From Haloarcula nitratireducens (GTDB lineage Archaea; Halobacteriota; Halobacteria; Halobacteriales; Haloarculaceae), in the NCBI RefSeq assembly GCF_019599505.1, contig NZ_RKLT01000007.1, positions 1 through 64,000 on the forward strand: 64,000 nt of DNA, in the 5' to 3' direction. Under the pieces are notes generated by a model. It did not search any database, was not told the origin of the DNA, and saw nothing but the letters and a program-made list of their open reading frames with translations. Below, piece by piece: positions 16,229-19,725 of this stretch. Within the stretch, counting starts at the first letter, position 1. Each line of letters starts with the position of its first letter. Made by a program: the position numbers and the translations under genes.

Positions 16229-16439
16229 GGTAGCGCGTAATAGCTGTAATGTACCCGCCAGCGTTCTTAAACCTGTGGTGCGTCGGGGTTTCGGGTAATC
16301 GTAGTGTAGCCCGTCTCCCGTCTCGGCCGCTATCGTCGTATCGGAAATTACTGATCGGAACAGTGCACTAGAACTACCGAAATGGCTACAGACGAGATAT
16401 GGGCGAGAGAATATAGATATGTAGAATTGCGTTTTGAAT
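16229..16439. other. Spacer upstream of the histidine kinase
   Basis: Contains a minus-strand TATA-like CTTAAAC complement at 16266-16272 appropriate for the kinase transcript. Composition becomes AT-rich from about 16370 toward the origin. Confidence 0.4.
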
Positions 16440-16693
16440 TTCGCCATATATAATTATATATACACTTTTCATGGACATATAATGCCTATGTAGAGATATA
16501 AGGAGGGATATAGGTACGTTTTTGACAATAAGAATATATTTACTCTAATCCAGATACTAAAAAGAGCATAAATACAATCTTCGGAAGCTGCGAAGACGTA
16601 TACGAGTCGAAGAGTGGTTCGTGGGAACTCCGCTTTCGAAAGCGATAGATCACCGGTTCGCTCGGTGACCTCGTTCGAGGGAAGACACAGACA

Positions 16694-16711
16694 CCCCTCT
16701 ATCGATGTGTT
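16694..16711 (-). repeat. Origin iteron L1
   Basis: CCCCTCTATCGATGTGTT on the plus strand, exact match to the left-cluster consensus, reverse orientation. Confidence 0.8.
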
Positions 16712-16800
16712 CCGACTGTTAGGGGAGTGTGGTGTCGACCGGGACTCGTGGAAAGCACAAAGACGATCGAAGGACGTGTTCGAACCGTGTGGGACACACA

Positions 16801-16818
16801 CCCCTCTATCGATGTGTT
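16801..16818 (-). repeat. Origin iteron L2
   Basis: Exact copy in reverse orientation, preceded by GACACACA that extends the G-side TGTGTG tail seen at other copies. Confidence 0.8.
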
Positions 16819-17046
16819 CTGACCGACTGTGTAGGGGGGACCGTCGAGCGGAGAGCCGGTAACGAGCGACGTCCCACCGTACAGAGAATGTGCCGGAAGT
16901 CGAGAGAGAGCGGCGAAAACTATAGAAATGGCGAAGAGACTCTAAAGCGGCTCTACAGTGGTGTCGAGAGCTACTACGGAAAGTGTACGATCCGGCTGCT
17001 TCGTTTCTACCTCCAGAGTGAGGATCCCACCCCTCGGAACACATCG

Positions 17047-17064
17047 AACACATCGATAGAGGGG
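17047..17064 (+). repeat. Origin iteron L3
   Basis: AACACATCGATAGAGGGG exact, followed by a TGTGTGTGTGT tail and preceded by a partial second copy (AACACATCG at about 17038). Confidence 0.8.
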
Positions 17065-17251
17065 TGTGTGTGTGTTGTCGCTAGTAAGCTAGAAGAAAGA
17101 AGAAGAAGAACGAATATCGAAGTGTGAGAGGTTCTACATTCTATATTTCGGCTTCTAGCGTTAGAGGTGAGGACACGGCTCTCTCTACCGAATCTGTTTT
17201 GACCGCTCTCTCGATGAACCCGCTCGAACCCCCACCCCTTCCTTTCGCTCG

Positions 17252-17269
17252 AACACATCGATAGAGGGG
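17252..17269 (+). repeat. Origin iteron L4
   Basis: Exact copy, with the TGTGTGTG tail. Confidence 0.8.
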
Positions 17270-17378
17270 TGTGTGTGTCCCTTTTTTCCCGAACATATCG
17301 TCACTACTTCTGTCTCCTCTCGCATCCGGGAAGCGCGAAATCGCATTAACGCGCTACTGACGAACTCAATAACGGAAT

Positions 17379-17396
17379 CACACATCGATAGAGGTG
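17379..17396 (+). repeat. Origin iteron L5 (degenerate)
   Basis: CACACATCGATAGAGGTG, two mismatches, 37 bp before the orc1/cdc6 start. Its position suggests that it overlaps the gene's promoter and could mediate autoregulation. Confidence 0.7.
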
Positions 17397-17433
17397 AGTA
17401 ACGTTTTTCCCCCCTGAACGTGTCGGTTCGGTC

Positions 17434-19110
17434 ATGGACGCTGACGACTCTGAGACTGACGACACCACCGAGTCGTCGAGGCCGGACGATTCCGAAGCGA
17501 CGACACAGTCTGATCTCCTGGCGAGCGCGGACGAGCGAACCACGGCCGACGAGGCCGAGTCCGCAGGCGAACTCGACCCGGTTTCTGATTCGAATGCAAC
17601 TCGGACGAATACAGAGCCGGCTCCGACGACCGAGTCCAGCGAGGAACAGTCGTCATCGACCGAAGATAGAGAACTGTCGTCACCCGAAGAGGGAGAACCG
17701 TCGTCTCCCGCTGAGAGCGAGACGTCAGCTCCCGATGCCAGTACGTCGATCTCGACCGAAAATAGCGAGTCAGTCTCTCTCGACGGCGAGGAATCGTCGG
17801 CTCGCGACAGCGACGGCTCGCAGTCTATCGAGGACATGCTTCTCGAGTTCGAGGAGCAGGAGGGGCTGATTCGCGACCGCTCGCTGCTCGATCCCAACCA
17901 CGTCGTCGAGGAAGACCGCATCGTCGGCCGCGACCGGCAGCTCCAGGAAGTAACGAAGATGCTCCGGGTCGCACTCGGTGACAACCGACCGCCGAATCTC
18001 TTTCTATACGGTCCCTCGGGGACGGGGAAGTCCCTCATCACCAAGGCCGTCTGTAAGAACATCAGTCAGATCTGTTCGTCGAGGGACATCCGATTCGGGA
18101 CGGTCGAAGTCAACTGCCAGGACCTCGATACGCTCGGTATCGCCGTCTACGAACTCGGTCGCCGCGCCGCCGACGAAGCGGACGTCGACATCGAGGTACC
18201 GAAACACGGCGTCGCCACGAAGGAGAAGTGGGACGAGCTGTATCGCATCGTCAACGAGAACTTCGATTCCGTGGTGTTCGTTCTCGACGAACTCGACATG
18301 CTCGTCGGCCGCCGCGACAAACAGGACCCCGCGTTCTCGCGGCTCCTCTACCAGCTCTCGCGTGCGGGTGCCAACGACGAGATGACCGCTCACATCTCCG
18401 TCGTCGCCATCTCGAACGACACGAAGATGATGGAACTCGTCGGCAGTCGCGCGCTGAGTTCGTTCACCCCCGAGGACGTCCACTTCGACGATTACGACGC
18501 GAACCAACTGCAGTCGATCCTCCGGCGACGACAGGACGCCTTCCACGAGGACGTCCTCGACGACGGCGTCATCTCGCTGGCGGCGGCGTTCGCCGCACAG
18601 ACCCACGGCGACGCGCGGAAAGCCATCGACCTGATTCGGGTCGCCGGCGAACTCGCGGAGCGGGAGGGCGATTCCAACGTCCGCGAACGACACGTCCGTG
18701 CGGCTCAGGACAAGGTCGAGAAGAACCGCGTGTTAGAGGTCGTCCGCGGCATCAGCACGCAGAAGAAGCTCTGTCTGTACGCGACCGCGGCGGTTGCAAC
18801 GGAGACGGAAGACGAAACCGCCCGGAGCACGACGGGGTATCGCGTCTATCAGTTCCTCACCGACTCCATCGACGCCGACCAGTATCACCAGGAGACGTAC
18901 GTCAACAAGATGAAGGAGATGACGACCTACTCGCTCGTGGACTTCGAGCGGCGGAGCCACGGTCCGAGCTCGGGGATGTTCTTGGAGTTCCAGTTCGGCG
19001 AGCGGCCACGGACCATCCTCGAAACTCTCAGGGAAGACTCTCGACTGGAGATGGTCGCCGCCGATGAGGTGCAGTCCGTCGTCAGGGCGCAGGTCCGAAA
19101 CGAGGCGTAA
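17434..19110 (+). CDS. Orc1/Cdc6-type replication initiator
   Basis: 558 aa. AAA+ core: Walker A G-P-S-G-T-G-K-S (193-200), Walker B V-F-V-L-D-E-L-D (281-288), sensor 1 near N328, sensor-2 Arg in H-G-D-A-R-K-A-I (about 395), then a C-terminal winged helix (about 430-558) for DNA binding. The family binds origin repeats and loads the MCM helicase. Iterons flank the gene on both sides, so it almost certainly recognises them. Archaeal homologues are usually near 400 aa; the surplus is an N-terminal acidic, Ser/Glu/Asp-rich, low-complexity segment of about 130 residues before S-I-E-D-M-L-L-E-F-E. Confidence 0.95.
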   Translation: MDADDSETDDTTESSRPDDSEATTQSDLLASADERTTADEAESAGELDPVSDSNATRTNTEPAPTTESSEEQSSSTEDRELSSPEEGEPSSPAESETSAPDASTSISTENSESVSLDGEESSARDSDGSQSIEDMLLEFEEQEGLIRDRSLLDPNHVVEEDRIVGRDRQLQEVTKMLRVALGDNRPPNLFLYGPSGTGKSLITKAVCKNISQICSSRDIRFGTVEVNCQDLDTLGIAVYELGRRAADEADVDIEVPKHGVATKEKWDELYRIVNENFDSVVFVLDELDMLVGRRDKQDPAFSRLLYQLSRAGANDEMTAHISVVAISNDTKMMELVGSRALSSFTPEDVHFDDYDANQLQSILRRRQDAFHEDVLDDGVISLAAAFAAQTHGDARKAIDLIRVAGELAEREGDSNVRERHVRAAQDKVEKNRVLEVVRGISTQKKLCLYATAAVATETEDETARSTTGYRVYQFLTDSIDADQYHQETYVNKMKEMTTYSLVDFERRSHGPSSGMFLEFQFGERPRTILETLREDSRLEMVAADEVQSVVRAQVRNEA

Positions 19111-19134
19111 CCGACGCACGTCGGATCCGACAGA

Positions 19135-19152
19135 CCCCTCTATCGAAGTGTT
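19135..19152 (-). repeat. Origin iteron R1
   Basis: CCCCTCTATCGAAGTGTT, right-cluster consensus, 24 bp after the orc1/cdc6 stop. Confidence 0.8.
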
Positions 19153-19166
19153 CTCTGATAACCACA

Positions 19167-19184
19167 CCCCTCTATCGAAGTGTA
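19167..19184 (-). repeat. Origin iteron R2
   Basis: CCCCTCTATCGAAGTGTA, one mismatch, preceded by CCACA. Confidence 0.8.
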
Positions 19185-19358
19185 GATCTCGTTCAAAGGC
19201 GCTCTAGTGCCGATATCTCTCAGTGCCGAAGGGTCGGATCTGTCGTCCTCCGGATAGTAATAGGCGAGCTCGAGGCGCTCTCCGTTTCCAAGTAGACCGA
19301 CGTTCGGGTCGCCCTCTCCGTCGAGGGTTTCGCCGACCGGTTCGCTCTGACGGTCACC

Positions 19359-19376
19359 CCCCTCTATCGAAGTGTT
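19359..19376 (-). repeat. Origin iteron R3
   Basis: Exact right-cluster copy, with a lengthened C run. Confidence 0.8.
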
Positions 19377-19402
19377 TTCGCCGATTAGTTCCTTCAGCCA
19401 CG

Positions 19403-19498
19403 CTCCCCCCTATCGATGTGTTCTCCCGACGATTTCTCCGAGTAGTCACGCTCCCCCCTATCGATGTGTTCTCCCGACGATTTCTCCGAGTAGTCACC
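19403..19498. repeat. Tandem 48-bp duplication containing iterons R4 and R5
   Basis: Bases 19403-19450 and 19451-19498 are identical except for the last position. Each unit holds CCCCCCTATCGATGTGTT (iterons at 19405-19422 and 19453-19470, reverse) plus a CTCCCGACGATTTCTCCGAG spacer. A recent duplication enlarging the array. Confidence 0.85.
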
Positions 19499-19516
19499 CT
19501 CCCCTATCGAAGTGTC
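19499..19516 (-). repeat. Origin iteron R6 (degenerate)
   Basis: CTCCCCTATCGAAGTGTC, keeps the TATCGAAGTGT core and the 46-bp phase of the array. Confidence 0.65.
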
Positions 19517-19543
19517 TTTTCGACGAGTCCGTTCGGACGGTCT

Positions 19544-19561
19544 CCCCTCTATCGAAGTGTT
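19544..19561 (-). repeat. Origin iteron R7
   Basis: CCCCTCTATCGAAGTGTT exact, starting 45 bp after R6. Confidence 0.8.
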
Positions 19562-19707
19562 CGGTTCCTTCTGCTGTTACCCCGTGTTCGGCCGAAACCG
19601 ATAGTGAGAGGTTCACTGTACTGATCTCGATTCGATACTGGTCCGTCCACTCCCGATCGATCGACCGGTGTGTCGGAATTCTCGCTGGCGGTCGTTTCCG
19701 GTTGCCC

Positions 19708-19725
19708 AACACTTCGATAGAGGGG
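19708..19725 (+). repeat. Origin iteron R8, inverted outer copy
   Basis: AACACTTCGATAGAGGGG exact with a TGTGTG tail; the only forward copy on the right side, marking the outer boundary. Confidence 0.8.

Follow-up and report, generated by a model that had tools for sequence, protein, structure and literature searches.

An initiator gene flanked by thirteen boxes

The 64-kb window (the whole stretch of DNA that was analyzed) contains an intact orc1/cdc6 gene at 17434–19110, whose 558-aa product belongs to the Orc1/Cdc6 initiator family, matching TIGR02928 over model positions 1–366 of 366 (E 3.4e-125; 417.7 bits against a cut-off of 181.3). Around this gene lie 13 matches to the box AACACWTCGATAGAGGGG at three or fewer mismatches, five upstream and eight downstream, and all of them fall inside 16694–19725. 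In 100 dinucleotide shuffles of the window the mean was 0.06 matches and the largest number 1, with none reaching 13. Eight copies have no mismatch, three (19167, 19405, 19453) have one, 17379 has two, and 19499 has three. The mismatch-tolerant scan and the shuffles thus confirm the copy number, the division between left and right, and the presence of both orientations on each side, all of which had been given in the initial annotation. Inverted ORB repeats with a G-string adjoining orc/cdc6, as found here, are the arrangement of orc/cdc6-associated haloarchaeal origins. The features of the locus are as follows.

16396..16580, no strand: AT-rich block left of all boxes, by AT content and stability
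16694..16711, minus: ORB copy 1, plain upstream box, 0 mismatches
16801..16818, minus: ORB copy 2, last minus-strand box, 0 mismatches
17037..17045, plus: half-box GAACACATC directly before the central ORB (TRF period 9 at 17037–17056)
17047..17064, plus: ORB copy 3, central box (+1) of the putative origin core, 0 mismatches, distinct conserved context
17065..17076, plus: TG run after the central box, seen in the sequence and also after the central copy in relatives
17081..17092, no strand: two CTAG sites (17081, 17089) between central box and purine tract, seen in the sequence
17091..17114, plus: GAA-rich purine tract with one pyrimidine; with CTAG, the putative unwinding element
17252..17269, plus: ORB copy 4 (+2), 0 mismatches
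17379..17396, plus: ORB copy 5, GGTG variant joined to the orc promoter, 2 mismatches (GGTG end)
17400..17409, plus: promoter-like AACGTTTTTC with its T run centered some 28 nt ahead of the ATG; putative promoter
17434..19110, plus: orc1/cdc6 initiator gene, 558 aa, intact, TIGR02928 match
19135..19152, minus: ORB copy 6, downstream array, 0 mismatches
19167..19184, minus: ORB copy 7, 1 mismatch
19359..19376, minus: ORB copy 8, 0 mismatches
19405..19422, minus: ORB copy 9, inside the 48-bp tandem unit, 1 mismatch
19453..19470, minus: ORB copy 10, inside the 48-bp tandem unit, 1 mismatch
19499..19516, minus: ORB copy 11, degenerate, 3 mismatches
19544..19561, minus: ORB copy 12, 0 mismatches
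19708..19725, plus: ORB copy 13, outermost, opposite orientation, 0 mismatches

The eight copies in 19135–19725 form an array directly 3′ of the initiator gene, part of which (19359–19515) is made up by tandem duplication of a 48-bp unit. Plasmid origins of the iteron (Rep) type combine a Rep protein gene with direct-repeat iterons; the gene flanked here is orc1/cdc6 and the boxes occur in both orientations, so this type was rejected.

A box family linked to one Orc clade

Relatives of the window Orc were found at 76 genome loci, and 51 plasmid records match it with an identity of at least 60%; at related loci the box accompanies orc. We pooled the 76 loci with 17 fetched regions, three plasmid loci, and the window, leaving out L155 (32%) as well as L156 and L157, in which no Orc was matched. 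Collapsing proteins more than 98.5% identical reduced 67 clade-1 loci to 60 for the spacing, AT-content, purine- and CTAG-context, stability, pattern, and half-box counts, and the smaller n in the AT-content, context, stability, pattern, and half-box counts are the loci with the required upstream pattern. No collapsing was applied to the promoter-copy and A/T counts, the plasmid and H. amylolytica box comparison, the composites, or the CTAG clusters. Related loci share ancestry and are not independent, so the counts overstate significance.

A degenerate 16-mer form of the box occurs in 101 of 391 genomes of the class (Haloarchaea). Of the exact 16-mers, 56 of 57 lie clustered, in 10 of 13 genomes, each genome's copies falling in one stretch of less than 5 kb; reversed controls gave 0 in both searches. 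The random scatter across the genome that the initial annotation had named as speaking against its reading is therefore absent. In the sister clade (clade 2; Orc 67%–70% identical) the box is consistently changed to GAACAARTCGATAGRGGTG, and among loci of other Orc clades, no match at three or fewer mismatches was seen in 23 of 25, the other two holding three weak ones between them. ORB sequence is thus linked to Orc clade, and the pairing of motif class with initiator clade suggested earlier is borne out. The core, thought unusual at first, is what a widespread haloarchaeal Orc clade has as its standard box, and it also stands beside plasmid-borne relatives such as those of pL131 and pHLAC01. 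Nor are numerous or bilateral boxes out of the ordinary, both being described in PMC3528665 and PMC3936714. A literature search with the box strings returned no relevant paper, judged by titles.

The number of boxes per clade locus has a median of nine and a maximum of 13, reached in the window and in L142. The commonest upstream strand pattern is --+++ (32 of 60 non-redundant loci), and at least one downstream copy is present in 59 of 60 non-redundant clade-1 loci. In the window the core reads ATCGAT in 5/5 left copies and TTCGAT in 6/8 right copies, from which two sub-classes of differing affinity had been proposed. That division is clear in the window, L142, and L001, and partly so in L028, but it does not hold clade-wide: over 67 clade-1 loci the variable position is A in 125/138 upstream minus copies, in 99/119 upstream plus copies other than the last, and in 165/236 downstream copies, with T in 40/64 last upstream copies. 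T-rich arrays are confined to the window's near lineage, and we reject the A/T sub-classes as conserved affinity classes; on this sequence comparison they are lineage-specific. The conserved split instead sets a GGTG promoter copy against mostly GGGG elsewhere.

Upstream spacings appeared helically phased by eye, an impression tested afterwards mostly on the loci that had suggested it. For spacing differences of at least 4 bp between nearest relatives (n = 31), the highest cosine mean among 21 periods tried was 0.33, at 10.5 bp (jitter p 0.0027), and control intervals gave −0.17, 0.01, −0.41, and −0.05. Only 16 of the 31 differences come within 2 bp of a 10.5-bp multiple, close to chance level. 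In scans of unique spacings two intervals showed peaks at 10.0 and 11.5, and the third none that was clear. Phasing is weak and plays no part in our explanation.

A conserved unit at the central box

The half-box precedes the central copy in 29 of 45 clade-1 loci (16/45 are without it). At other clade-1 copies it is nearly absent (+2, 1/45; promoter, 0/45; last minus, 1/42; downstream, 1/214), and none was found at the 23 clade-2 loci. CTAG is depleted in the window (24 against 210 expected), three sites lying at 17081, 17089, and 17155; with only two in 60 bp, the window itself falls below a cluster threshold of three CTAG in 60 bp. Clusters of at least three per 60 bp stand upstream of orc at 46 of 94 loci, versus one cluster in 657,163 bp elsewhere. 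Within 60 nt of the central copy CTAG is found at 26 of 42 loci, compared with 4, 7, and 2 of 42 for the other upstream classes and 23/214 for downstream copies; the 16 of 42 without it include the Halorubrum clade-1 loci. After the central copy, a purine run of at least 15 nt is present at 27 of 42 loci; the count is 0/42 for each other upstream class and 3/214 downstream. The other 15 of 42 have no such run, and L035 has a 0.87-AT stretch in its place.

The CTAG-purine composite occurs once in the window. In family loci 53 composites stand beside an upstream box and 33 elsewhere in 798,163 bp, and CTAG with purines recurs in the sister clade despite its different ORB. At least two CTAG precede orc at 27 of 50 other Orc loci. 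A purine flank next to CTAG was seen at only 2 of 50 non-family Orc loci, or with the same loose criterion as for the family at 5 of 25 loci of other Orc clades, and we rejected the composite as a general feature of haloarchaeal origins. Lag-3 identity within the tracts is 0.62 versus 0.50 (40 clade-1 tracts) and 0.56 versus 0.49 (20 clade-2 tracts). This periodicity is only partial and tracts with other spacings exist, so a strict GAA-triplet repeat was likewise rejected.

In both clades (n = 42 and 23) mean stacking energy reaches its lowest value at +20, immediately to the right of the copy corresponding to 17047, so that an easily melted stretch accompanies the ORBs as a clade-average minimum beside the central box. 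The initial annotation implied a different unwinding element, the AT-rich block at the far left. This block is real (0.74, 0.66, and 0.76 AT in 50-bp windows from 16430, 16480, and 16530), and nowhere in the window's intergenic region is the helix less stable (−1.10 kcal/mol/bp against −1.26 for the conserved element). Of four relatives compared, L142 and L001 keep it, but L028 and L030 lack it at that place (L028 has 0.60–0.64 AT further left), AT content left of the boxes averages 0.44–0.51 across relatives (n = 38), and the clade-average minimum adjoins the central box instead. We therefore regard it as unlikely that the AT-rich block replaces the CTAG-purine stretch as the unwinding element; it is a candidate for a secondary one, or for the promoter region of the divergent kinase gene.

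The promoter copy and the remaining boxes

One box is joined to the orc promoter at 57 of 66 clade-1 loci, with T at the GGTG position in 56 of the 57 and AAC..TTTT after the box in relatives. The other nine of 66 have no promoter copy by our criteria; L015 shows one by eye, and some of these misses are thus the criterion's. In clade 2 a degenerate copy precedes a T-rich box in 22 of the 25 loci listed. We infer that the GGTG box at 17379 is an autoregulatory site. This prevalence could also suggest that the boxes serve mainly as operators, through which Orc or another regulator controls transcription of orc and its neighbors, rather than as an origin. Most boxes, though, stand away from the orc promoter, inverted upstream and arrayed downstream, and neighboring genes differ among three annotated plasmid relatives while the boxes stay constant, making an operator function in place of an origin very improbable. 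The remaining boxes, those of the downstream array included, look plain in context.

A model for the locus

The locus is most likely a start site of DNA copying (an origin) beside its own initiator gene, the thirteen boxes probably being binding sites of the initiator protein. The family match of the Orc and the clade-linked, clustered boxes support the initial annotation's Orc1/Cdc6-linked origin with ORB-type boxes as one of a known kind. We hold with good confidence that the origin would be Orc1/Cdc6-dependent, a single initiator reading one box family in three settings. By comparison with relatives the boxes are not equivalent but fall into central, promoter, and plain or array classes, a division that is apparently new and in which we infer sites of unwinding, autoregulation, and titration.

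Orc would bind the half-box and the central plus box (17047) that follows it, inverted boxes standing to the left and plus boxes to the right. The CTAG and polypurine stretch (17081–17114) would melt, and MCM would be loaded there. Orc on the GGTG box at the orc promoter would block or tune its own transcription, and the eight boxes of the downstream array would take up surplus Orc and limit re-initiation, a role that genetic work has led to be proposed for oriC2D of H. hispanica (PMC3936714). CTAG is a known target of 4-methylcytosine methylation. A more tentative reading, less likely than not, is that the half-box, ORB, TG run, CTAG, and GAA-rich purine strand form one haloarchaeal basal unwinding element in which Orc on the tandem box directs melting of the purine tract, possibly gated by that methylation. 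The same Orc would then repress orc by way of a weakened promoter box, the array would act as buffer, and copy control would arise from graded box quality.

The cassette might alternatively be a dormant or relic origin carried along by recombination, with the replicon starting elsewhere. Predicted haloarchaeal origins without demonstrated activity have been reported (PMC3528665, PMC4441112), GC skew shows no clear switch at the locus, and in one relative (G117, L145) orc is broken up. Yet the Orc is intact here, conservation across genera of box positions, half-box, promoter copy, and purine tract suggests selection, and on pL131, one of the plasmids with a relative, there is only one orc (PMC3528665, Table 1). 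We consider a relic quite unlikely. An active origin of the kind modeled above would bear on where archaeal Orc melts DNA and on how haloarchaea limit initiation at their many origins, and the proposed division of labor, conserved in its box contexts across genera, points to the central unit (17037–17114), the promoter box (17379–17409), and the array (19135–19725).

Comparison with known systems

In bacteria, the DnaA-box and DnaA-trio unwinding element places a short, strand-asymmetric, repeat-like tract after an initiator box. The layout of box and then tract is the same here, with an unrelated initiator and only partial triplet periodicity. Across main texts, with few subscription journals among them, our literature search for CTAG-polypurine or trio-like elements, for phasing, and for autoregulation in archaeal origins returned no relevant reports besides the CTAG papers.

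A close likeness in arrangement is to oriC2-cdc6E of H. hispanica, which has ORBs upstream of the initiator and a dense cluster directly downstream, oriC2D, with 11 ORBs in a 722-bp intergenic region (PMC3936714). By itself oriC2D does not replicate; it lowers origin activity, likely by titrating Cdc6E (PMC3936714). On indirect evidence from the H. amylolytica genome, the window initiator probably belongs to another Orc family than Cdc6E: the genus keeps oriC2-cdc6E (PMC4441112), and the nearest relative of the window Orc in this genome (L052) shares 68% identity with it and is followed by no more than three or four boxes. The consulted parts of the oriC2-cdc6E account mention neither a promoter box nor a CTAG-purine core (PMC3936714).

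Wu et al. (2012) described origin families with family-specific ORBs carrying a G-string and sometimes flanking orc on both sides (PMC3528665). Both N. pharaonis pL131 and H. lacusprofundi pHLAC01 belong to their set, and because the Orcs of these plasmids are 85.0% and 87.5% identical to the window Orc over the aligned part, the present family may be among the origins they list; the parts consulted do not divide the boxes into classes with different roles. Enrichment of CTAG upstream of haloarchaeal orc1/cdc6, reported by Blow et al. (2016), is shared by the window's family (PMC4752239). CTAG methylation is suspected of a part in replication (PMC4752239), and here, unlike in the consulted parts of that report, CTAG has one defined spot beside the initiator box, flanked by a defined ORB on one side and a polypurine tract on the other.

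The Box Array and Its Genes

The initial annotation described thirteen copies of an 18-bp repeat, a candidate Orc-binding box, on both sides of an initiator gene, and the array is as described: the 18-mer has 13 matches, five left and eight right of the ORF at 17434–19110 (shuffled expectation 0.06), whose protein matches Orc1/Cdc6 over the whole length of the model. The left neighbour of the array is as follows.

13289 to about 16229, minus strand, PAS-domain sensor kinase gene (start inferred)

No tRNA genes were found within the 64-kb window, and its least stable stretch is the AT block at the left, present also in two (L142 and L001) of four related orc loci checked. Collapsing near-identical proteins reduced 67 clade 1 loci (those with Orc at least 71% identical to that of the window) to 60, of which 59 have downstream copies and 32 share the commonest upstream orientation pattern, --+++. 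Copy number is highest in the window and in L142 (8 downstream and 13 in total; medians 4 and 9), and a tandemly duplicated 48-bp unit accounts for part of the growth of the window's downstream array. Upstream box spacings in clade 1 group around certain values, among them about 180, 190, and 203 bp; support for a putative helical phasing of them is weak and mixed.

The N-terminal part of the Orc protein (17434–17820) is long, acidic, and Ser/Glu-rich, with 24-bp coding repeats at 17644–17717, and alignments to most relatives start only at about residue 60–130. Megablast of 5000–29900 returned matches to plasmid records of Sinorhizobium (76) and Rhizobium (24). Because 20300–29900 matches haloarchaeal records only, the source of these matches lies to the left of 20300; it is perhaps a gene that bacteria also carry.

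The Box Goes with the orc Gene

A scan found 76 haloarchaeal loci related to the window's orc gene. In a first survey of 52 clade 1 loci, upstream boxes were seen in all except L031 and L073, the latter truncated by a contig end, and downstream boxes within a 1.5-kb limit in all except L026 and L044, with more copies lying beyond that limit in L026. In a later set, L145 has no upstream box within reach; its orc is broken up and its boxes are farther out. The sister clade (clade 2, 67%–70% identity) carries a related, consistently changed box, GAACAARTCGATAGRGGTG (25 loci, 194 sites), and L047, grouped with it, has a single upstream copy. Among loci from other Orc clades, 23 of 25 are without a match at three mismatches, and most of the 25 carry different repeats. 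The pairing of motif and Orc clade that the initial annotation had proposed examining is thus borne out, with the box in clade 1, a changed box in clade 2, and mostly none elsewhere.

The random scatter that, together with a failure of the initiator to bind, would have spoken against the origin reading was not seen in these genomes. The exact 16-mer core occurs 57 times in 10 of 13 whole genomes, with none in the three chosen for the sister clade and none for the reversed control in all 13; 56 of the 57 fall into a single cluster of <5 kb in each genome, and the remaining one is 45 kb off. Allowing one mismatch adds some stray sites. A degenerate 16-mer is present in 101 of 391 genomes of the class, in some just once or twice, and its reversed control in none of the 391. 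The box goes with the orc gene.

A few single boxes and paired cassettes were also noted. The two closest relatives share a lone exact box (G001:C34:71500 in L113; G345:C3:326358 in L115), downstream of orc at a distance of about 47 kb from the promoter copy. The surrounding DNA is syntenic (90% identity); in L113 the box is flanked by amphi-Trp and mechanosensitive-channel gene matches, and the equivalent position would be just beyond the window. The lone box of L133 (G110:C2:33519), on a contig of 130,989 bases, is separated from the origin cluster by about 61 kb, which places it roughly opposite, and is possibly due to chance. One replicon (G091:C1) carries the family's orc-origin cassette twice, at sites about 45 kb apart (L147 and L148).

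A Divergent Copy at the Putative Promoter

In the window, the upstream box nearest orc has the variant GGTG; it passes into a promoter-like AAC..TTTT, which lies about 28 nt upstream of the ATG. By a set criterion, a promoter-linked copy is found in 57 of 66 clade 1 loci, one further locus being too short; none was scored in L015, L031, L041, L044, L045, L141, L145, L148, and L149, though in L015 it is visible by eye. The variant position is T in 56 of these 57 copies, and G in 205 of 257 other upstream and 142 of 236 downstream copies. At the equivalent place in the sister clade, 22 of the 25 loci printed have a copy that is degenerate in a different way, followed by a T-rich box; in 19 of the 22 it reads AAATCGACAGGGG. 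This suggests that the initiator has a weakened putative binding site at the promoter of its own gene.

The Central Copy and Its Flank

The third box from orc (17047), the central copy, is set in a distinct sequence context. In 29 of 45 clade 1 loci a 9-bp half-box stands before it, as against 1/45, 0/45, 1/42, and 1/214 for other box classes; the corresponding clade 2 copy has none in 23 loci. On its 3′ side a TG run comes first, then CTAG sites, then a purine tract. Purine runs of at least 15 nt lie past the central copy in 27 of 42 loci (0/42 for each other upstream class, 3/214 downstream), and CTAG in 26 of 42 (4, 7, and 2 of 42 for the other upstream classes; 23/214 downstream). Both follow the corresponding clade 2 copy in six of seven loci printed, L064 being weak. 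Mean stacking energy is lowest at +20 from the central copy in both clades (−1.22 in clade 1, n = 42; −1.20 in clade 2, n = 23).

In 46 of 94 loci, the 1.5 kb preceding orc contain a CTAG cluster, defined as at least three sites in 60 bp. Of the 49 such clusters, 40 lie 17–28 bp beyond a plus box; elsewhere there is one in 657,163 bp. The window falls below this threshold, having a pair of CTAG sites there and the next one 66 bp further. Over its 64 kb it has a single CTAG-purine composite, at 17091. In 53 of the 94 family loci such a composite adjoins one of the upstream boxes, and 33 more occur elsewhere in 798,163 bp. Outside the family, at least two CTAG stand close together upstream of 27 of 50 Orc loci (three clusters downstream, over a similar length). 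Since just two of these 50 have a flank that is at least 0.85 purine, and a looser composite criterion holds in 5 of 25 other-clade loci, the unit of box, CTAG, and purines marks the window's Orc family largely, not solely.

Comparison with Known Origins

Judged from sequence, the locus is a genuine origin, probably a functional one. Passages of PMC3936714 report that in H. hispanica each of three tested origins requires its own cdc6 gene, and that an eleven-ORB region downstream of cdc6E lowers origin activity, for which titration was proposed; those of PMC3528665 describe haloarchaeal ORB families that are specific to Orc, as well as ORBs on both sides. Motif clusters upstream of haloarchaeal orc1/cdc6 have been linked to an orphan methylase in sections of PMC4752239, where the motif is printed once as CATG in the text and as CTAG in a figure legend; CTAG methylation is discussed, its role doubted or left open, in portions of PMC5867850 and PMC6471742. 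An origin of this sort, boxes on both sides of orc, titration, and clustered CTAG sites are thus of already known kinds. The parts of the literature searched give no description of specialised boxes in the window's Orc family, and beside these known systems the box specialisation, with its putative roles, would be a new and testable feature.
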